Assembly: GCA_019116345.1 (NCBI GenBank)
Contig: DXBV01000020.1
Span: forward strand, 1-64,000
Reading direction: 5' to 3'
Source of the DNA: Candidatus Allofournierella merdipullorum
Lineage (GTDB): Bacteria > Bacillota > Clostridia > Oscillospirales > Ruminococcaceae
DNA length: 64,000 nt
Part shown: positions 1-13,750 of the stretch, piece by piece
How positions within the stretch are numbered: the first letter of the stretch is position 1
Layout of the letters: each line of letters opens with the position of its first letter
Translations under genes and position numbers: made by a program
Notes under the pieces: generated by a model
The model's input: only the letters and a program-made list of their open reading frames with translations
The model's database searches: none
What the model was told of the DNA's origin: nothing

Positions 1-567
1 AGCAATTTTATCAATTTCATCTATATAGATGATACCTTTTTGAGCTTGTTCAATATCATTATCAGCAGCTTGAATTAGTTTTAGTAGAATATTTTCTACG
101 TCTTCACCAACATAGCCTGCTTCTGTAAGTGATGTTGCATCGGCTATAGCAAAAGGAACATTCAATATTTTAGCCAAGGTCTGTGCAAGTAAAGTCTTTC
201 CACTACCAGTTGGTCCTAACATCAAAATATTAGATTTTTGTAATTCAACATCATCCTGCTTTGTAACTCTATTTATACGTTTATAATGGTTATATACAGC
301 TACAGAAAGAGATTTTTTTGCCTCATCTTGTCCTATTACATATTGATTTAATACATCATATATTTCTCTAGGTTTTGGCAACTCTCTAAGTTCAACAGGC
401 TCATTATCATTAACTTCTTCTTCTACAATCTCATCGCAAAGCTTAACACATTCATCGCAGATATAGACTCCTGGTCCAGCCACGAGTTTTCGTACTTGTT
501 CCTGAGTTTTTCCACAGAATGAACATTTCATTTTGCCTTTATTACCCTCACCGAAATTCAACAACAT
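1..567 (-). CDS. clpX: ATP-dependent Clp protease ATP-binding subunit ClpX (partial, runs off window start; AT-rich copy)
   Basis: Minus-strand translation from ATG at 567: [44 protein letters not shown]... (zinc-binding domain) then ...[22 protein letters not shown] (Walker A). Confidence 0.95.
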
Positions 568-598
568 TCACCTCTTATCTACAGCTAATCATGATTGA

Positions 599-1219
599 CT
601 ATTTATCACTTTTTTCTTCTTGTGGACGAATAATAACTTCATCTATTAAACCATATTTCTTAGCTTCTAACGCTGACATAAAATTATCACGTTCTGTATC
701 TTCTGTAAGTTTTTTTACAGACTGACCAGTATGACGACTTAAGATTTCATTTAAAGTTTCACGAATACGCAAAATTTCACGAGCCTGAATTTGAATATCT
801 GTTGATTGTCCCTGAGCTCCGCCAAGTGGTTGATGTATCATAATGCGAGAATATGGAAGTGCATATCTTTTGCCTTTTGCACCAGCAGCTAAAAGCACAG
901 AGCCCATGCTAGCAGCTTGTCCAATACATATAGTTGATACATCTGGCTTAATATATTGCATAGTATCATAAATAGCTAGCCCGGCAGTAACAACACCGCC
1001 GGGACTATTAATATAAAGGTGAATATCTTTATCCGGGTCTTCAGATTCTAAGAATAGAAGTTGGGCTATTACCACGTTAGCTACATTATCATCAATAGGA
1101 CCACCTAAAAAAATTATACGGTCTTTTAAAAGACGAGAATAAATATCATAGGCACGTTCTCCACGTCCTGACTGTTCAACTACCATAGGTACATAGTTCA
1201 TATCATTCACCCCGGTCAA
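599..1219 (-). CDS. clpP: ATP-dependent Clp protease proteolytic subunit ClpP (AT-rich copy)
   Basis: 206 aa; [16 protein letters not shown] (Ser) and IMIHQPLGG (His) motifs; sits between tig and clpX. Confidence 0.97.
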
Positions 1220-1242
1220 AAATATTACATTTAATTTTTTAA

Positions 1243-2535
1243 TTAAGCTTCTACAGCACTGTCAATGATGAAGTTAGCAGCTTTTTTGTGAAGTACAGTA
1301 GCTACTAAGTTACCAATGCTGTGGTTCTTTTTAATGATTTTGCTTACTTCTTGTGGAGTTGTACCATAAGTTGCAGCAAGTAAAGCGATTTCAGCGTTGA
1401 TATCAGCGTTTTCAACTTTGATATCTTCAGCTTTTGCAACAGCATCTAACATGAGGTCAGTTTTTACTGCGATTGCAGCACTTTCTTTGTACTGTTCACG
1501 AAGTTTTGCCATATCCATGTTAGCATATTTTAAGTAAGCATCAAGGTTCATACCTTGGTTTTCAAGATTTACGGAAAGTTCCTGAATCATGTTGCTTACA
1601 CGGTTTTCAACCATAACTTCTGGAATATCTACAGTGATATTGTCAGTAGCCTGTTTTAAGATTTCGTTACGGCGTTTAGTATCTGCTTCACGCTGTGCAT
1701 TTTTTTCAATGTTTTCACGAAGTTTTGCTTTCATGTCTTCGATGGATTCATAAGAAGTAGATGCTTTTACGAATTCATCAGTGAGTTCAGGCATTTCTTT
1801 ATGTTTAATGCTGTTAATTTTGCAATGGAATACAGCAGCTTTACCAGCTAAATCTTTAGCATGATATTCTTCTGGGAATGTTACGTTAACGTCTTTTTCT
1901 TCGCCAACTTTAAGACCAACGAGTTGATCTTCAAAAGTATCGATGAAAGAATGAGAACCGATTTGAAGTGGGTAATCTTTACCTTCGCCGCCAGCAAATG
2001 TTACACCGTCAACTTCACCTTTGAAATCTAAAGTGATGAAATCATCGTTTGCAACAGTTGCGCCTTCTTCAGCGTCAACCATTTTTGCATGGTGATTTAA
2101 GATATTTTTTACTTGTTCTTCAACTTGTTCGTCTTTTACTTCAACAGCGTCTTTAGCAACTTTTAATCCTTTGTATTCGCCAAGAGTAACTTCTGGAACA
2201 GGAGTAATAGTAGCTTTGAATACTACGTCTTTACCTTCTTCTAAAGTTACGATGTCAACCTGTGGACGGTCTACTGGATCTAAGTTTTCTTGTTTTAAAG
2301 CTTCATCAAAAGCTTTCTGTGCAACACGATCAAAAGCTTCATCTAAGATAGCTTCTTTACCGATGTTCATTTCAAGAATACGGCGAGGAGCTTTACCTTT
2401 TCTGAAACCAGGAATGTTTACACGATTTGCAAGGGATTTGCAAGCAGCTTTAATACCTTTATCAAGTTCTTCAGCTGGTACTTCAATTGTAAGTACTACC
2501 TTATGATTTTCAATCTTTTCTGTAGTAACGTTCAT
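1243..2535 (-). CDS. tig: Trigger factor (AT-rich copy)
   Basis: 430 aa; N-terminal ribosome-binding signature [17 protein letters not shown] domain [13 protein letters not shown]. Confidence 0.97.
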
Positions 2536-2683
2536 TGTAAAAAAAAACCTCCTGTTTAACTAGTAAACCAAAATTCTTATTGTATATGTTACTGTCATTC
2601 ACCTTAATAGTCACAGTACACCTACTATACTAAATGAATGATATCACAATACTTTCATAAAAACAAGTCTAAGTACAAAAATA

Positions 2684-2704
2684 CCCCAGTCTTATTGACT
2701 GGGG
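2684..2704 (-). terminator. Rho-independent terminator after the tRNA cluster
   Basis: Perfect stem ccccagtc-ttatt-gactgggg; on the minus strand it is followed by TATTTTTG. Confidence 0.75.
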
Positions 2705-2716
2705 ACCAATTTCTTA

Positions 2717-2793
2717 TGGAGCGGAAAACGAGGCTCGAACTCACGACCTCTAGCGTGACAGGCTAGCGTTCTAACCGACTGAACTACCGGGCC
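2717..2793 (-). tRNA. Hybrid tRNA: 5' part tRNA-Asp(GTC), 3' T-arm/acceptor Gly-like; acceptor stem cannot pair
   Basis: Minus strand GGCCCGGTAGTTCAGTCGGTTAGAACGCTAGCCTGTCACGCTAGAGGTCGTGAGTTCGAGCCTCGTTTTCCGCTCCA. Anticodon arm CTAGC-CTGTCAC-GCTAG is good, but 5' GGCCCGG does not pair with 3' TTTCCGC. Confidence 0.8.
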
Positions 2794-2797
2794 ACAA

Positions 2798-2873
2798 TGG
2801 TGGAAGTTAACGGGCTCGAACCGCTGACCCTCTGCTTGTAAGGCAGATGCTCTCCCAGCTGAGCTAAACTTCC
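2798..2873 (-). tRNA. tRNA-Val(TAC)
   Basis: Acceptor GGAAGTT/AACTTCC, anticodon arm TCTGC-CTTACAA-GCAGA, T-arm AGCGG-TTCGAGC-CCGTT, encoded CCA. Confidence 0.95.
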
Positions 2874-2880
2874 AAAAAAA

Positions 2881-2956
2881 TGGAGCGGCTTACGAGGCTC
2901 GAACTCGCTACCTCCACCTTGGCAAGGTGGCGCTCTACCAGATGAGCTAAAGCCGC
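2881..2956 (-). tRNA. tRNA-Gly(GCC)
   Basis: Acceptor GCGGCTT/AAGCCGC, anticodon loop with GCC (CCACCTTGCCAAGGTGG), T-arm GCGAG-TTCGAGC-CTCGT, encoded CCA. Confidence 0.95.
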
Positions 2957-3001
2957 AAATCCATTGGTTTGCACCGCCAATCTCTTTTGGCGACGGTGTT
3001 T

Positions 3002-3030
3002 ATTTTACCGCATCTTTCCTGCTTTGTCAA
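3002..3030 (-). promoter_or_regulatory. Sigma-70/SigA-type promoter for the tRNA operon
   Basis: Minus strand TTGACA-(17 nt)-TAAAAT just upstream of tRNA-Gly. Confidence 0.85.
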
Positions 3031-3095
3031 GACTATTTCTCAACTTTATTTTAGTTTCTCCAAAGATGTGCAAACCATGTGGTTTTATCAGGATT

Positions 3096-3962
3096 TTACA
3101 GGGATTTCAGAAGCTTTGCAATGTCTACATTATAGGTCTTGTCACAGAACTGGCAGTTCACTTCCACACTTTTTTCTTCCTGCGCAAGGCTCTCCAGCTC
3201 CTGGCGGCCCATGCTCAGCAGCGCGCGCTCAACCCGCTGGCGGCTGCAGTCACATTTATAAGCCACATCGTATTCGTCCAGCACCTGCGGGTCGAACCCC
3301 TGCAGGACCAGATCCATGATCTCTTTGGGGCCCATCCCCTGCTGCAGAAGTTTTGTGACGCTGGGAGCCTTTGAGACGTTCTGCTCCAGCATGGAGATCT
3401 CCTGCTCGGTAGCACCGGGCAGAAGCTGGATCATATAGCCGCCCGCACACTGGATGGACAGATCAGGGTTGACCAGAACGCCCAGCGCGCACACGGTAGG
3501 GGTCTGCTCGCTGGTGGCGTAATAGGCGGTGATGTCCTCGGCCACTTCCCCGCTCACCAGCGGGATCTGCCCTACATAGGGCTCTTTGAGGCCCAGATCG
3601 CGCACGACGCTCAGAGTGCCGTCCTTGCCCACAGCGCGGCCCACGTCCAGTTTGCCGTCGCCGCGCAGAGGCAGCTCCACCACCGGGTTCTGCACGTATC
3701 CCTTGACGCAGCCCGCGCCGTCGGCTACAGCCAGTACGGTGCCGGCAGGTCCGCCGCCGTTGAGCCGGAGGGTCAGGGAATCTTTCTCGCTTTTCAAAGT
3801 GATGCCCATCATGGAGGCGGCGGTGAGAAGCCGCCCAAGCGCGGCGCTGGTCACAGCGCTGGTCTTGTGGATGCGCTCGGCCTCGGCCACGATATTGGTG
3901 GAATCCACGCCGTAGAACACCACGCCGCCGTTGTCGGAAATACCGCGAATCATGTTAGCCAT
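3096..3962 (-). CDS. hslO: Hsp33 family redox-regulated chaperone HslO
   Basis: Start chosen at MANMIRGISDNGG; C-terminal zinc site CDC...CQFC. Confidence 0.93.
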   Translation of the reverse strand: MANMIRGISDNGGVVFYGVDSTNIVAEAERIHKTSAVTSAALGRLLTAASMMGITLKSEKDSLTLRLNGGGPAGTVLAVADGAGCVKGYVQNPVVELPLRGDGKLDVGRAVGKDGTLSVVRDLGLKEPYVGQIPLVSGEVAEDITAYYATSEQTPTVCALGVLVNPDLSIQCAGGYMIQLLPGATEQEISMLEQNVSKAPSVTKLLQQGMGPKEIMDLVLQGFDPQVLDEYDVAYKCDCSRQRVERALLSMGRQELESLAQEEKSVEVNCQFCDKTYNVDIAKLLKSL

Positions 3963-4725
3963 TGTGTGTCTTCTCCAGTTGTGTGTATTGTTTGATCGCC
4001 GTAAAAATGTAACGCTGACTGTCCGGCTGCAGCGGCCCGAAGGTCTCGCCGTCCCGCAGTTCCGCCAGCGCAAAACCGTTTTCTTCCAGCACTTGTTTTA
4101 CATAGTCCGCCTCATAGGTGTACTCCGCAAACTGTTCCCGGAACACTTCGCCTGTGTCGAGATACTCGATTTGGATGGAAATGTCCACCCTGTCCCCTTC
4201 CGGCGAACAGGCGTTGCGCCAGCGGCAGACGGCGTCCGGGCCTTCCAGCACGAACTCGTTGTCCGCCAGCACCTGCCGGTGCTTATAGGGGGTGTTAAGG
4301 TCGAAAATGAACACGCCGCCCTCTTCCATGAAAAAGGCAGCCCGGGCCACGGCCTGCTCAAAGCGGGGCGCAGGGCCGATGTGATTGTAGGTGTCAAAGG
4401 TGGACACGGCGCCGCGGATGGTGCCGAACAGGTCGAGGCTGAGGATATCCTGGCGCAGCAGGAGCAGACGCTGGGAGATGCCCAATTCGTCCGCCTTTTC
4501 CCGCAGCACGGCCAACATCTCTTCCGACTGATCCACCCCGATCATGTCATAGCCCGCCTGGGTGAGCATCAGCGTCAAATCGCCGGTGCCGCATCCAAGG
4601 TCAGCCACGATGCCGTCAGTGATACCGTGGGCCTGCAGCTGCTCCGTAACATAAGTATACAGTGCATCGTAGTCCGCTTCGCCGTTCAGCTCGTCATAAA
4701 AATAGGCAAATTCATTGTAAGCCAT
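3955..4725 (-). CDS. Class I SAM-dependent methyltransferase
   Basis: MAYNEFAYFYDELNGEADYDALYTYV...GIVADLGCGTGDLTLML motif I. Confidence 0.85.
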   Translation of the reverse strand: MAYNEFAYFYDELNGEADYDALYTYVTEQLQAHGITDGIVADLGCGTGDLTLMLTQAGYDMIGVDQSEEMLAVLREKADELGISQRLLLLRQDILSLDLFGTIRGAVSTFDTYNHIGPAPRFEQAVARAAFFMEEGGVFIFDLNTPYKHRQVLADNEFVLEGPDAVCRWRNACSPEGDRVDISIQIEYLDTGEVFREQFAEYTYEADYVKQVLEENGFALAELRDGETFGPLQPDSQRYIFTAIKQYTQLEKTHNG

Positions 4726-4732
4726 ATCGACT

Positions 4733-5323
4733 TTACACCTCTTCGGAGAGCAGACTTTCGAAAATCGAGCGCAGCTCATCCACGCCGAAGCCTGTCTCGC
4801 TGCTGGTGAGCACGATCTGCCGGCAGCCGAACTCCTCGGTCAGGAAGGCGAACTCTTCCCTCTTTTTGGCGATCTCGCTTTTTTTCAGTTTGTCCGCTTT
4901 GGTGAGCGCGGCCACGAAGGGAATCTTTCGGTAACGCAGGTACTCCAGCATCTGCATATCGTCGGCGGAAGGCGCATGGCGGCTGTCCAGCAGCTGGACC
5001 AGCAGCACGCAGTTGCGCTCCGCATCAAAATAGCTGTTGATCAGCTGATCCCAGCGCTGCCGGTCCGCAGCGGAGACCTTTGCGTAGCCGTAGCCCGGCA
5101 GGTCAACGAAATAGGCGCCGTCCACCGTATAAAAGTTGATGGTGGCCGTTTTGCCCGGCGTGGCGCTGACGCGCGCGAGATTTTTGCGGTTGCAGAGTTT
5201 ATTGATAAGGCTGGACTTGCCCACGTTGGACCGGCCGGAAAAAACGAACTCCGGCCGGTCGCTTTCGGGAAGCTGGCTGGAAAGACCATAGGAAGCCTGA
5301 AAGTCAGCTTTCTGGTAGTTCAT
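4733..5323 (-). CDS. engB: Ribosome biogenesis GTPase EngB/YsxC
   Basis: FSGRSNVGKSSLINKL, TPGKTATINFY, DLPGYGYAK, TKADK. Confidence 0.95.
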   Translation of the reverse strand: MNYQKADFQASYGLSSQLPESDRPEFVFSGRSNVGKSSLINKLCNRKNLARVSATPGKTATINFYTVDGAYFVDLPGYGYAKVSAADRQRWDQLINSYFDAERNCVLLVQLLDSRHAPSADDMQMLEYLRYRKIPFVAALTKADKLKKSEIAKKREEFAFLTEEFGCRQIVLTSSETGFGVDELRSIFESLLSEEV

Positions 5324-5338
5324 AACGGGCCTCCTTTA

Positions 5339-7798
5339 TCACTGGCGCAGGGTGGACGGATGGGGCTGCTGCTCGACCCGCACTACCGGTTCGGCAGCGC
5401 CAGCCACGGGGGCCTGCTTGGCCTTTTGGGGCCGTCGGGCCTGCCGAGGCGTGAGCAGCGCGTGGCTCAGCACCTGCTCCAGACGGCTCACCGGTACAAA
5501 GCGGACGGCCTTTTTGACCTCTTCGTCCACGTCGTAAAGGTCGCTCTGGTTTGCCTGGGGGATGAGCACCGTTTTGATGCCCTGCCGGTAGGCAGCCATG
5601 CTCTTTTCTTTCAGCCCGCCGATGGGCAGCACGTCGCCGTGGAGGGTGATCTCGCCGGTCATGGCCACATCCGCCCGCACGGGAACGCCGGACAGGCAGG
5701 AAATGAGAGCCGTGGTGAGGGTGACGCCCGCAGAGGGGCCGTCCTTCGGCACAGCGCCCTCGGGGGCGTGGATGTGAAGGTCAGCGGTCTTGAGCTGTTC
5801 GGAGTCGATGCCGTATTCGGCGGCGTGGACCCGCGCAAAGGTGACGGCAAGATGGGCGCTTTCCTTCATCACGTCGCCCAGGGAGCCGGTCAGCTCGATC
5901 TTGCCGGAACCGCCCGGGATGACCTGCACTTCGATGGGCAGGATCGCGCCGCCCACGCTGGTCCAGGCAAGGCCGTTGGCGATGCCGATGGCGTTGGTGC
6001 GGTTGTAGAAGTCCGGCTTGACGCGGCGGGGGCCCATCAAAGGCTCCAGATTGGCGGCAGTGACGGTCACCTTCTCCGTTTCGCCAGCGGCCACCTTGCG
6101 GGCGCACTTGCGCAGCACCTCGGTGATGGCACGTTCCAGACCGCGCACGCCTGCCTCCTGGGTGTAGCCGTCGATGAGGCCATAGATAGCCCCTGGCGTC
6201 AGATTCACCCGCCCCGTCAGGCCGTTTTTCTTCAGTTGCTTGGGCAGCAGGTGCCGTTTGGCAATGTTGAACTTTTCCTCGCGGGTGTAGCTGGGCAGCT
6301 CGATGACGTCCATACGGTCCAGAAGGGGCGCCGGGATGGAGGAAAGGTCATTGGCCGTGGTAATGAAGAACACCTGGCTGAGATCGAAGGGGATGTCAAG
6401 ATAGTGATCCTTGAAGGTCTTGTTCTGTTCCGGATCCAGGGTTTCCAGCAGCGCGGCAGCCGGGTCGCCCCGGAAGTCGGCCGCCAGTTTGTCGATCTCG
6501 TCCAGAAGAATGAGCGGATTCATGCTTTTTGCGGTGGAGACGGCGCTGATGATCTTGCCCGGCATCGCGCCCACATAGGTGCGACGGTGACCGCGGATCT
6601 CCGCCTCGTCCCGCACACCGCCAAGGCTCATGCGGGCGTATTTGCGGCCCATGCACTCGGCGATGGAGCGGGCGATGCTGGTCTTGCCCACGCCCGGAGG
6701 GCCTGCAAGGCAGAGAATCTGGCCCTTGGAATCGGGGTTGAGCATGCGCACCGCCAGCAGTTCCAGAATGCGGTCCTTGACCTTTTTCAGGCCGTAGTGC
6801 TCCCGGTCCAGATGCTTTTCCGCCCGGGCAAGGTCTAGATCGTCGGGGGTGTAAACGCCCCAAGGCAGGCCGAGGCAGGTGTCCAGATAGGTGCGGATGA
6901 CCGCCGCCTCCTGGCTGTTGCCCTGCATTTTGCCCAGGCGCTCCGCCTCTTTTTCCAGCTTTTCGGTGGCTTCCTCCGAAAGGCTGAGGGCCCGGATCTG
7001 CTGGAGATACCGTTCGGCCTCATAGCGGACGTCGTCATCGCCGTCCAGCTCGGTGGCGATGGCGCGCATCTGCTCCCGCAGATAGTAGTCCCGCTGGTTT
7101 TTCTCCATCTGGTCGTTGACCTTGTCTTGGATCTCTTTTTCCAGCTCCAAGACCTGGTTTTCCCGATAAAGAAGATCCAGCGCGGTCTGGAGCCGCCCCA
7201 TCAGGGTGCTCTGCTCCAGGACGGTCTGCTTATCCTGGTATTTGAACAGCAGGTTGGCCGGAATATATTCGCTCAGAAACACCGCGTCGCTTCCGGAAAG
7301 AATGGTGTACACCACATCCTTTGGCATGCGGGGATTCAGTTGCAGATAGGTCTCAAAAGCCTGTTTCAGGCTGCGGATCAGCGCTTCGGCGGCCACGCTG
7401 CCCGCTTTCTGCAGGCCGCGGACCGGCGCTTCCTTCACCGTGACGGTGAGCATCTTTTCGCCGCTTTCCAGCGCCAGCAGACGGGCACGGTACTGCCCTT
7501 CCACCAGGACCTTTACCAGGTCATCGGAGACGCGCATCACCTGCTTGACCTGTGCCACAACACCATAGCGGTACAGATCGGAGGTGGTAGGCTTCTCCAC
7601 GTCCATCTCCCGCTGGGTGATCAGAAAGATGGGGCTGGCGTTGGCCATCGCCCACTCGATGGCGGCGATGCTCTTTTCCCTGCCCACTTCAAAATGAATG
7701 ACGCTGCCCGGGAACACCACAAGCCCGCGCAGGGCAATGGCCGGCAGATGCAGCACATTGTGGTCCACCTTGATCGTTACACGTTCAGACATTGGCAT
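5339..7798 (-). CDS. lon: ATP-dependent protease Lon
   Basis: 819 aa; [15 protein letters not shown] Walker [18 protein letters not shown] catalytic Ser. Confidence 0.97.
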
Positions 7799-7806
7799 TC
7801 CCTCCC

Positions 7807-7838
7807 AAAAACGGTACGGGCAAAATGCTCGTACCGTT
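7807..7838 (-). terminator. Strong hairpin plus T-tract between clpX and lon; T-tract abuts the lon RBS
   Basis: aacggtacgggc-aaaat-gctcgtaccgtt; minus strand continues TTTTTGGGAGGGAATGCCAATG(lon start). Confidence 0.75.
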
Positions 7839-7885
7839 TCGATTTCAGAATAATTCTTCTGTAAAGCTGTTTGCCATTACGGCAT

Positions 7886-9205
7886 TTACACCACGGGAAC
7901 CGTGTTCTTATACCGCTTGCGGACTGCGCCGTACTCCAGCACGGGCTCGCCGCCGGCCACAGCCTCGGGGGTGATGGTGACTTTGACAATGGTGGGGTCA
8001 CTGGGGACCTTGTACATGATGGGGATAAGGATCTCTTCCATTACGCTGCGCAGGCCGCGGGCACCGCTCTTGCGCTCGATGGTCTTTTTGGCCACGGCGC
8101 GCAGGGCCTCGTCGGTGAACTCCAGGTCCACGTTGTCCATCTGCATCAAAGCCTGGTACTGCTTGATGACGCTGTTCTTGGGCTCCTTGAGCACCCGGAC
8201 CAGAGCGTCCTCGTCCAGCGGGTCCAGCACGGTGACCACCGGCAGACGGCCGATGAGCTCAGGGATGAGGCCGAACTTCACCAGATCGTGGGGCTCGACC
8301 TTGCGCAGCAGATTCTGCTTTTCCTGTACGGAGGTGTCACGAAGCTTGCTGCCAAAGCCGATGGAGGAGGCGTCGGTGCGGCGCTGGATGTGCTTTTCCA
8401 GGCCGTCGAAGGCGCCGCCGCAGATGAACAGGATGTTCTTGGTATCGATCTGGATGAATTCCTGCTGGGGATGCTTGCGCCCGCCCTGAGGCGGAACGTT
8501 GCTCACGGTGCCCTCCAGGATCTTCAGCAGCGCCTGCTGCACGCCCTCGCCGCCCACGTCGCGGGTGATGGAGGGGTTTTCGCTCTTGCGGGTGATCTTG
8601 TCGATCTCATCGATGTAGATGATGCCGATCTCCGCCCGCTTCACGTCAAAGTCGGCAGCCTGGATGAGCTTGAGCAGGATGTTCTCCACGTCCTCGCCCA
8701 CGTAGCCGGCCTCGGTGAGGGTGGTGGCGTCGGCAATGGCGAAGGGAACGCCCAGCATCTTGGCCAGAGTCTGGGCCAGCAGGGTCTTGCCCACGCCGGA
8801 GGGGCCCAGCAGCAGCACGTTGCTCTTCTGAAGCTCCACGTCGTTCTTGCTCTCGCCGCTCAGGATGCGCTTATAGTGGTTGTAGACAGACACGGCAAGC
8901 ACGCGCTTGGCCTCGTCCTGGCCGATGACGTAACGGTCCAGCCCCTCCTTGATCTCGGCGGGGGTGAGCACGTTTACCGGGTCCAGCGTGGGAGCGGCAT
9001 GCCGCACGTTGTTGCGGCGGGCCGCCGCCTTGGGGGCGTCGGGCTTGCCGTCCTCGTCCAGCAGCGAGGAGCACAGCGTGATGCACTCGCTGCAGATGTT
9101 GACGCCGGGGCCGATGATCATGCGCTCCACTTCGTCCTGGCTTTTGCCGCAGAAGCTGCAGCGCAGATTCTTATCTTTGTCTTTTCCGTTCGAATTGTTT
9201 GCCAT
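7886..9205 (-). CDS. clpX: ATP-dependent Clp protease ATP-binding subunit ClpX (GC-rich copy)
   Basis: [29 protein letters not shown]...; [17 protein letters not shown]. Confidence 0.97.
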
Positions 9206-9257
9206 AGTTACCCCTAAACGATGCGCCGGCACGCGAAACGCGCCTCGCGCGGATTGA

Positions 9258-9842
9258 TTACCGTTTGGTGATGACCGCGTCGATCAGGCCGTAATTGACG
9301 GCCTCCTGGGCGGACATGAAGTTGTCGCGCTCGGTGTCGGCCATGATCTTTTCGATGGGCTGGCCGGTGTACTCGCTGAGCATGCGATTCATGCGCTCGC
9401 GGGTGCGCACCAGATGATCGGCGTGGATCTTGATGTCGGTGGTCTGACCCTGCAGGCCGCTGAGCAGCGGCTGATGGATCATGATCTCGGCGTTGGGCAG
9501 AGCCAGACGCTTGCCCTTGGCGCCGCTGGCCAGCAGGAATGCGCCCATGGAGGCGGCCATGCCCATGCAGATGGTGGACACGTCGCACTTGATATACTGC
9601 ATGGTGTCGTGGATGGCCATGCCGGCGGTGATGGAACCGCCCGGGCTGTTGATGTAGAGGCTGATGTCCTTCTCGCTGTCCTGGCCTTCCAGATACAGCA
9701 GCTGGGCCACCACCAGGCTGGCGGTGGCGTCGTTGACCTCATCGCTGAGCATGATGATGCGGTCGTTCAAAAGGCGGGAAAAGATGTCGTAAGAGCGCTC
9801 GCCCCGGGCGGTCTGCTCCACAACGTAAGGAACCAAACTCAT
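9258..9842 (-). CDS. clpP: ATP-dependent Clp protease proteolytic subunit ClpP (GC-rich copy)
   Basis: 194 aa; [41 protein letters not shown]. Confidence 0.97.
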
Positions 9843-9879
9843 TTGGCTGTACCTCCCAGTGAAAAATGTAAGCAGTCTT

Positions 9880-9921
9880 GCAAAATTGACCGATACGGGC
9901 CGCAGAGCGCGTATCGGTCAA
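9880..9921 (-). terminator. Hairpin/terminator between tig and clpP
   Basis: 12-bp perfect stem ttgaccgatacg ... cgtatcggtcaa; minus strand followed by TTTTG. Confidence 0.6.
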
Positions 9922-9961
9922 TGCAGGACGGCTTATGTAAGGTGAAGCGCCGTTCGGGCGA

Positions 9962-11263
9962 TCAGCCCTCCTTGGCGACCTTCTCCTCGGTGATCTCCGC
10001 GTGGTCGCGGATGAAGTCGATGGCCTTGTTCACCGCCAGATCCTTCTTGACCTCGTCGGCGTTGACCAGCTCCTTGACCTTGGCCAGCTCCATCTTGTAG
10101 CTGTCGGCGATGCGCTGCAGCTCGTTCTCCAGATCCTCGTCGGAGGCAACGATCTGCTCGGCGGCGGCAACGGCCTCTAGAGCCAGGCGGATCTTGACCT
10201 GCTTCTCGGCCTGCTCCTTGAAGGAAGCGCGGAAGGACTCCAGGGTCTGGCCCATGTACTGCAGGTACATATCCAGCTTCAGGCCCTGCTGCGCCAGGCG
10301 GTACTCGAAGTCACGCACGGCCTCGTCCATACGGGCTTCGTACATGGCGTCGGGGATGTCGCCCTCGATGGTGGCGATGACCTGGTCCACCAGATCGTTC
10401 TCCACGGCCAGAGCAGCCTGCTTCTCGTTCTGCTCTTCCATGCCCTTGCGGATGCTGGCCTTCAGCTCATCCAGGGTGTCGTACTCGCTCACGTCCTTGG
10501 CGAACTCGTCGTCCAGAGCGGGCAGCTCCTTGGTCTTGACCTCGTGCAGCTTGATCTTGAAGACGGCGGGCTTGCCGGCCAGCTCCTTGGCCTGGTACTC
10601 CTCGGGGAAGGTGACGTTCACGTCGAACTCCTCGCCGGCCTCGTGGCCGATCAGCTGATCCTCGAAGCCGGGGATGAAGCTGCCGCTGCCCAGGACCAGG
10701 CTGTAGTGCTCGGCCTTGCCGCCCTCAAAGGCGACGCCGTCCACAAAGCCCTCAAAGTCCATATCCACGGTGTCGCCGTTCTCGGCCTTGCCCTCGCGGG
10801 TGACGATGCGGCCGTTGCGGTTCTGCATGCGGACCAGCTCGGCTTCCACGTCGGCGTCGTCCACAGTATTGACCTTCTTGGTGGCCTTTAAACCGGTGTA
10901 GTTGCCCACCTTGATCTCGGGCTTCACAGCCACGACGACCTTCAGCACCACGCCGTCTTCCAGGCTCTCGGAGACCACGTCCACCTCGGGACGGCCCACG
11001 GGCTGGATGCCGGACTCCACCACCGCGGCCTCGTAGGCCTCGGGGAACAGATCGTTGATGGCGTCGTAGTGGAAGATGTCGGCGCCGTACATCTTTTCGA
11101 TCACCGCGCGGGGCGCATGGCCCTTGCGGAAACCGGGAACAGTGTACTTTTTGCCTTCGCGCTTGTAGGCCTTGTCGATGGCAGCCTTGAAGGACTCGGC
11201 GTCCACAGAGAACTGCAGCTCGTGCATGCTTTTTTCAAGCTTTTCGCTTTTTACAAGATTCAT
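9962..11263 (-). CDS. tig: Trigger factor (GC-rich copy)
   Basis: 433 aa; YTVPGFRKGHAPRAVIEKMYG; FKBP domain GDTVDMDFEGFVDG. Confidence 0.97.
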   Translation of the reverse strand: MNLVKSEKLEKSMHELQFSVDAESFKAAIDKAYKREGKKYTVPGFRKGHAPRAVIEKMYGADIFHYDAINDLFPEAYEAAVVESGIQPVGRPEVDVVSESLEDGVVLKVVVAVKPEIKVGNYTGLKATKKVNTVDDADVEAELVRMQNRNGRIVTREGKAENGDTVDMDFEGFVDGVAFEGGKAEHYSLVLGSGSFIPGFEDQLIGHEAGEEFDVNVTFPEEYQAKELAGKPAVFKIKLHEVKTKELPALDDEFAKDVSEYDTLDELKASIRKGMEEQNEKQAALAVENDLVDQVIATIEGDIPDAMYEARMDEAVRDFEYRLAQQGLKLDMYLQYMGQTLESFRASFKEQAEKQVKIRLALEAVAAAEQIVASDEDLENELQRIADSYKMELAKVKELVNADEVKKDLAVNKAIDFIRDHAEITEEKVAKEG

Positions 11264-12238: not shown

Positions 12239-12260
12239 TCCGGCGAAGCGCTCTCAAAAA

Positions 12261-12295
12261 CGGCCCGCGAATCGGTTTCGCGGGTCGTTTTTTGT
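12261..12295. terminator. Terminator between convergent DUF1540-like gene and thrC
   Basis: cccgcgaa-tcggt-ttcgcggg followed by tcgttttttg. Confidence 0.75.
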
Positions 12296-13750
12296 TTACT
12301 CGCCCAGTACCACGTCCCGCAGAGACTCGGGACGGATGGTCTTGTCGAACCGCTCGGGCAGGCTGCGCAGGACCGCCAGCGCCTGGGGCGCGGGCTGGCC
12401 GGCGTATTGAGCCAGAGCGGCCATGGCTTCGAACTCGTCCTCCGGCAGCGGCTGACCCAACGCGGCCAGCACATCCTTCGGGAATTTGAAGGGGCTGGCG
12501 GTGGAGAGCACCACCATGGGCGCCTCGCCCTTGTTGCGCACCGCGGCGCTGAAAGCGACGGCGGTGTGGGGGTCGCAGAGATAGCCCTCTTTCTCAAAGA
12601 GCGAACGGATCTGCGCGGAGGCGGTGGCGTCATCGGCGCAGGCGGCGCTGAAGTCGGCGCAAATGCGCTCCATCACCTCCGGCTCCACTTCATAAGACCC
12701 GGTCTCGAACAGCTGCTTCATCCAGCCCTTGACCTTCTCGGGGCCCGCCATGTGATAGAGCAGCCGCTCCAGGTTGGAGGACACCAGAATGTCCATGGAG
12801 GGCGAAGTGGTGCGGTAGAAGGGACGGCGGGCATTGTAGACGCCGGTGGCAAAGAACTCGGTGAGCACGTCGTTTTTGTTGGACGCGCAGATCAGTCTGC
12901 CCACGGGCAGGCCCATCTGCTTTGCGTACCAGCCGGCGAGAATGTCGCCGAAGTTGCCGGTGGGCACGCAGAAATCCGCCTTCTCCCCCGCCTTGAGCGC
13001 GCCGGAACGCACCAGCTGGCTGTAGGCGTGGAAGTAGTAGACGATCTGCGGCACGAGCCGGCCCCAGTTGATGGAGTTGGCGCTGGAAAGCTGCACGCCC
13101 CGCTCGGCCAGCTGCTTTGCCACGTCCGCGTCGCCAAAGACCCGCTTCACGCCGGTCTGGGCGTCGTCAAAATTGCCCTGTACCGCATAGACGGCCACAT
13201 TCTCACCCTGCTGGGTGGTCATCTGCAGGCGCTGGACTTCGCTGGTGCCGTGGCTGGGATAAAACACAGTGATGGTGACGCCCGGCACGTCGCAATAGCC
13301 TGCAAGGGCTGCTTTGCCGGTGTCGCCGGAAGTGGCCACCAGGATGGCGGTGGTGGTGGTGTCGCCCAGCATGCGCTTGGCCTCCACCAGAAGGCGGGGC
13401 ATCAGCTGAAGGGCGAAGTCCTTGAAGGCGCAGGTGGGGCCGTGCCACAGTTCCAGGCTGTACATCCCGTCCCCGGCTTTGCGCAGAGGCGCGGTGCCCT
13501 CGCCGAAGGCTTCGCCGTAGACCTGACGCACGGTTTCGCGCAGGAAAGCGGGATCATAGTCGGTGAGGAATTTTTCCAGAATGAAAGCCGCCAGCGCAGG
13601 ATAGTCCGGCTGGCCCAGTGCTTCCTTCAGATCCACCGAAGGAAACTGTTCCGGCACGAACAGGCCGCCGTCGCCGGCAAGGCCGAGGCAGATGGCCCGG
13701 GCCGCACTGACAGGCTGGCCCTCGCCGCGAGTGGTTTTAAACTGCATCAT
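12296..13750 (-). CDS. thrC: Threonine synthase
   Basis: 484 aa; MMQFKTTRGEGQPVSAARAICLGLAGDGGLFVPE; GPTCAFKDFALQ PLP-Lys motif; ATSGDTGKAAL. Confidence 0.94.
   Translation of the reverse strand: MMQFKTTRGEGQPVSAARAICLGLAGDGGLFVPEQFPSVDLKEALGQPDYPALAAFILEKFLTDYDPAFLRETVRQVYGEAFGEGTAPLRKAGDGMYSLELWHGPTCAFKDFALQLMPRLLVEAKRMLGDTTTTAILVATSGDTGKAALAGYCDVPGVTITVFYPSHGTSEVQRLQMTTQQGENVAVYAVQGNFDDAQTGVKRVFGDADVAKQLAERGVQLSSANSINWGRLVPQIVYYFHAYSQLVRSGALKAGEKADFCVPTGNFGDILAGWYAKQMGLPVGRLICASNKNDVLTEFFATGVYNARRPFYRTTSPSMDILVSSNLERLLYHMAGPEKVKGWMKQLFETGSYEVEPEVMERICADFSAACADDATASAQIRSLFEKEGYLCDPHTAVAFSAAVRNKGEAPMVVLSTASPFKFPKDVLAALGQPLPEDEFEAMAALAQYAGQPAPQALAVLRSLPERFDKTIRPESLRDVVLGE

Follow-up and report, generated by a model that had tools for sequence, protein, structure and literature searches.

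The minus-strand tRNA at positions 2717-2793 of the window (the whole 64,000-nucleotide stretch of DNA that we analyzed) is a hybrid. Its 5' two-thirds are from tRNA-Asp(GTC) and its 3' end is from tRNA-Gly(GCC). It is not a real gene and it has no biological function. We consider it nearly certain that the hybrid is a chimeric join that arose during assembly or library preparation. As part of this reading, sequence from a member of the Negativicutes (a strain of the species represented by genome G199) was attached to a contig end of the bin's organism, and presumably no cell carries the join. Bases 1-2729 are foreign to this genome and should be trimmed. The initial annotation of this DNA had proposed a chimeric join of two organisms as the likeliest cause; we found both parents, which strongly supports that proposal. 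An artefact is strongly favored because the native tRNA cluster continues elsewhere in the bin, on a separate contig.

A tRNA with two parents

Read on the minus strand from 2793 to 2717, the hybrid begins with GGCCCGG, contains the GTC anticodon, and ends with GTGAGTTCGAGCCTCGTTTTCCGCTCCA. Its acceptor stem is unpaired: GGCCCGG against TTTCCGC gives G-C, G-G, C-C, C-C, C-T, G-T, and G-T. ARAGORN does not call the hybrid, and the adjoining tRNA-Val and tRNA-Gly are its sole calls there. The Rfam match is partial: it covers 2728-2786 (model positions 8-63 of 71, 43.5 bits), from the D-arm to the T-arm, and does not include the acceptor stem. The neighboring tRNA-Val and tRNA-Gly score 67.4 bits and 64.2 bits. 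Also, the folding energy of the hybrid is about that of shuffled sequence (z = 0.06), versus z of about -1.9 for each parent tRNA. So the hybrid has neither the paired acceptor stem nor the recognition by tRNA models that mark a tRNA-Asp gene. The initial annotation had described a molecule that was half tRNA-Asp and half tRNA-Gly with an unpaired acceptor, and had suggested checking it with a tRNA model. The sequence reads as it described; ARAGORN, Rfam, and folding agree; and the tRNA models do not score the hybrid as a normally paired tRNA-Asp.

The part of the hybrid that comes from the recipient (2743..2793, minus strand) comprises the 5' acceptor strand, the D-arm, the anticodon arm, and the 5' T-stem. 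It is identical to the tRNA-Asp of congeners (loci L082, L083, and L085) and to the intact copy on contig C111 of the bin. The donor-specific 3' end (2717..2729, minus strand) comprises the acceptor 3' strand TTTCCGC, the discriminator, and CCA, and is identical to a tRNA-Gly(GCC) at the donor locus (L117, c[4218,4292]). In a base-by-base comparison, the window can be followed along the donor tRNA-Gly through 2742 and along the recipient tRNA-Asp from 2730. Both parents agree over the 13 bases at 2730-2742 (minus strand GAGTTCGAGCCTC; plus strand GAGGCTCGAACTC), which are common to the T-arms of the two parent tRNAs, themselves unrelated genes. The join lies inside this exact overlap, whose bases could belong to either side. 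The alignments of the congeners all start at 2730, and the first mismatch of the donor past the join is at 2743. After this one mismatch, the donor agrees with the window for five more bases, which gives a tolerant overlap of 19 bases with 18 identities. A fusion within the T-arm at this microhomology had been proposed from the start. The site was right, and the coordinates (given as 2731-2743) were off by one.

Mutational decay of a tRNA-Asp gene into a pseudogene would also yield something that is not callable as a tRNA. But the switch between parents is abrupt, and no mutations are scattered through the gene: its Asp part is identical to the congeners and its Gly part to the donor. We rejected this explanation and regard it as vanishingly unlikely.

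The 27-mer GTCGTGAGTTCGAGCCTCGTTTTCCGC from the hybrid is present in the source bin, whereas a search of 395 other genomes of the order did not find it.

The foreign segment and its donor

The GC content is 0.356 over the left segment (1-2729) and 0.567-0.637 in equal-sized pieces rightward, so there is a change in composition at the join, as was first noted from the sequence. The tetranucleotide profiles of the left and right sides have a correlation of -0.32, while pieces of the right side correlate with each other at 0.84 or above. The left-side profile has a correlation of 0.90 with the corresponding region of the donor chromosome. By NCBIfam, the left segment encodes, on the minus strand, a partial ClpX (1-567), ClpP (599-1219), and trigger factor (tig, 1243-2535). 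A terminator-like hairpin is at 2683-2705. The left segment had no match among phage records.

When we scanned genome contigs with the left tig, the relatives were at most 62% identical and there was no near-identical record, so we traced the donor by searching whole genomes from the class to which a relative, Propionispira, belongs. Among 383 genomes of this class, positions 1-2742 of the window match one place, G199:C1:1881538-1884280. The two are 99.8% identical, with five differences (at 271, 613, 686, 2001, and 2062). G199 is assigned to the Negativicutes in that the genome search was centered on Propionispira raffinosivorans; we guess that its genus is Megamonas, given its low GC content and its size of about 2.5 Mb. 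The composition of the left segment and this near-identical locus identify 1..2729 as foreign, low-GC sequence from the Negativicutes.

The locus in G199 has the same gene order (clpX, clpP, tig), with an intact tRNA-Gly(GCC) upstream of tig, in the place of the hybrid. This arrangement is well supported because the contig of G199 spans 2,522,577 bp. The donor tRNA-Gly reads gcggaag...ttttccgctcca, and its 5' end (GCGGAAG) closes the stem with a G-U pair. Two identical tRNA-Gly genes lie about 1.5 kb from each other in the donor, and a third copy is nearly identical. We checked 21 tig loci from Negativicutes in the tig scan, and in none of them does a tRNA immediately precede tig; the arrangement belongs to the donor genome.

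At position 613 of the window (in the region 599-620, at the 3' end of clpP), one base is missing relative to the donor locus (L117), which changes the C-terminus of ClpP from EEKK to EEKSDK. This is either a strain difference or a sequence error.

We also searched the bin with 5.7 kb of donor chromosome surrounding the match. The matches were to C112:1-2748 (the start of the window's contig) and to three ordinary tRNA-Gly genes, and to nothing else. Therefore, there was no wholesale admixture of this donor region.

Islands that are inserted by tyrosine recombinases usually target the 3' part of tRNA genes, and the breakpoint here falls within just such a region. This raises the idea that a mobile element integrated into the tRNA and remade its 3' end (attL/attR). 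However, such integration restores a working 3' end, and the 3' end of the hybrid cannot pair. The left 2.7 kb contains only clpX, clpP, and tig and no integrase. We rejected this explanation, which we consider extremely unlikely, since the left side, as far as it extends in the window, is collinear with a chromosomal locus of the donor and not with an element.

The recipient and its native continuation

To the right of the join are two intact tRNAs of the recipient on the minus strand: tRNA-Val(TAC) at 2798..2873 and tRNA-Gly(GCC) at 2881..2956. Both are identified by ARAGORN and Rfam, and they are in the same order in congeners. Beyond these are the recipient's own genes (3096..11263, minus strand): hslO, a putative methyltransferase, ysxC, lon, clpX (7886-9205), clpP (9258-9842), and tig (9962-11263). 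These are from NCBIfam, except for the methyltransferase, which had no NCBIfam hit and was read from the sequence alone. As a result of the join, tig, clpP, and clpX occur twice on the contig, in sets separated by about 7 kb. The trigger factors of the two sets are 37% identical.

In a search with 671 bases, the matches of three congeners (G002, G003, and G004) begin exactly at base 2730 of the window and run rightward, at 83-93% identity. All three have an intact tRNA-Asp (ggcccgg...ccgggtcgcca) within a cluster in the order Gly-Val-Asp-Phe-Gly-Cys. Three more distant members of the family (genomes G024, G029, and G012) share this order. The initial annotation had predicted both an intact tRNA-Asp after tRNA-Val in relatives and an intact tRNA-Gly upstream of tig in relatives of the left side. 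The first is present in the congeners and the second in G199, where it has the expected TTTCCGC end. Two of the predicted ends were slightly wrong: the tRNA-Asp ends in CCGGGTC instead of CCGGGCC, and the tRNA-Gly begins with GCGGAAG instead of GCGGAAA.

Contig C112 (77,291 bp), which begins with the window, comes from a bin of 2.47 Mb in 119 contigs with 83.9% completeness. The foreign piece is the terminal 2.73 kb at one end of this contig. Another contig of the bin, C20, starts inside tRNA-Phe and continues with tRNA-Gly and tRNA-Cys. Further along, C20 is collinear with the same contigs of the congeners (78-89% nucleotide identity). The first 6.4 kb of C20 is conserved in another congener, G001, at 99% identity and from almost the same first base, which makes it unlikely that C20 is a chance join itself. 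We infer that C20 is the true neighbor of C112.

About 6 kb of C20 (L146, G000:C20 236-6279), running from tRNA-Cys to conserved genes, is absent from that place in G003 and G004 and is 99% identical in G001. Within it, positions 475-5160 are 99-100% identical to a stretch on contig C2 of G004. The proteins encoded in this part of C20 include a Crp-family regulator, an NADH:flavin oxidoreductase, a SpoVAC/AEB-like protein, and a DUF1016 protein. The stretch may represent a variable island adjacent to a tRNA; there was no integrase among the five proteins that we scanned.

Could the join be a real and very recent transfer between distantly related bacteria, mediated by microhomology, in which 2.7 kb or more of housekeeping DNA passed from the Negativicutes into a tRNA-Asp gene, so that the lineage carries the hybrid? 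The 99.8% identity to the donor would fit a very recent event. The loss of this tRNA-Asp could be tolerable, as the bin has a second and intact copy (C111, near 12251-12327), which is the same as the hybrid over 67 bases and then has a normal end. However, the remainder of the native cluster, beginning inside tRNA-Phe, is still at the start of C20. The segment consists of housekeeping genes that the recipient already has, and there is no integrase among its three proteins. The segment also reaches the end of the contig and retains the full composition of the donor, and the hybrid is absent from every relative searched (the 395 genomes of the order). We think that a real transfer is very unlikely.

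A false join at a tRNA arm

The join has three features of a chimeric contig. Each side is collinear with its own parent organism up to the join; the join is at a short sequence (13 bases) that is common to both parents; and the recipient's true continuation is elsewhere in the assembly (C20).

The false join could have formed in two ways. First, the assembler might have merged the ends of two contigs through the T-arm sequence that they share, where repeated tRNA genes would make the graph complex. (The recipient's cluster contains two tRNA-Gly genes, in addition to the repeated tRNA-Gly genes of the donor.) Second, template switching during amplification might have produced a chimeric molecule. 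The exact overlap of 13 bases is shorter than the k-mers of the usual short-read assemblers. A search of 199 other genomes of the phylum did not find a bridging 19-mer, TCGTGAGTTCGAGCCTCGT, which a third organism might have supplied; this gives no support to a simple k-mer bridge. Because of the short overlap and the lack of the bridge in those genomes, we do not choose firmly between the assembler and template switching.

Contig C19 of G001 starts inside tRNA-Val of the same cluster. More broadly, four contigs from two bins start inside or next to tRNA-Phe or tRNA-Val (G000:C20:1, G000:C21:1, G001:C19:1, and G001:C43:1). Therefore, such clusters are recurrent break points of assemblies.

A single wrong join explains the apparent second tig-clpP-clpX set, the hybrid tRNA, and the apparent horizontal transfer, and recognizing it avoids false conclusions. 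Conserved T-arms in repeated tRNA clusters can be points of chimerism, and a tRNA that cannot pair is a cheap marker for such a join. In the part of the literature that our search covered, we found general accounts of chimeric contigs and none of joins at tRNA arms.

Genomic islands and prophages that are integrated at tRNAs resemble this case in that the breakpoint is in the 3' part of a tRNA. In contrast to those islands, there is no integrase, no mobile genes, and no restored tRNA here; what lies to the left is an ordinary chromosomal locus from a foreign organism. The closer comparison is to interspecies chimeric contigs in metagenome-assembled genomes, in which, as here, fragments from different sources are on one contig (PMC8201837). 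Such contigs arise when misassembly joins fragments from several sources, which is relatively rare compared to mis-binning (PMC8201837). Unlike in a typical interspecies chimeric contig, the breakpoint here can be narrowed to 13 bases within a pair of tRNA genes, and both parents are known.
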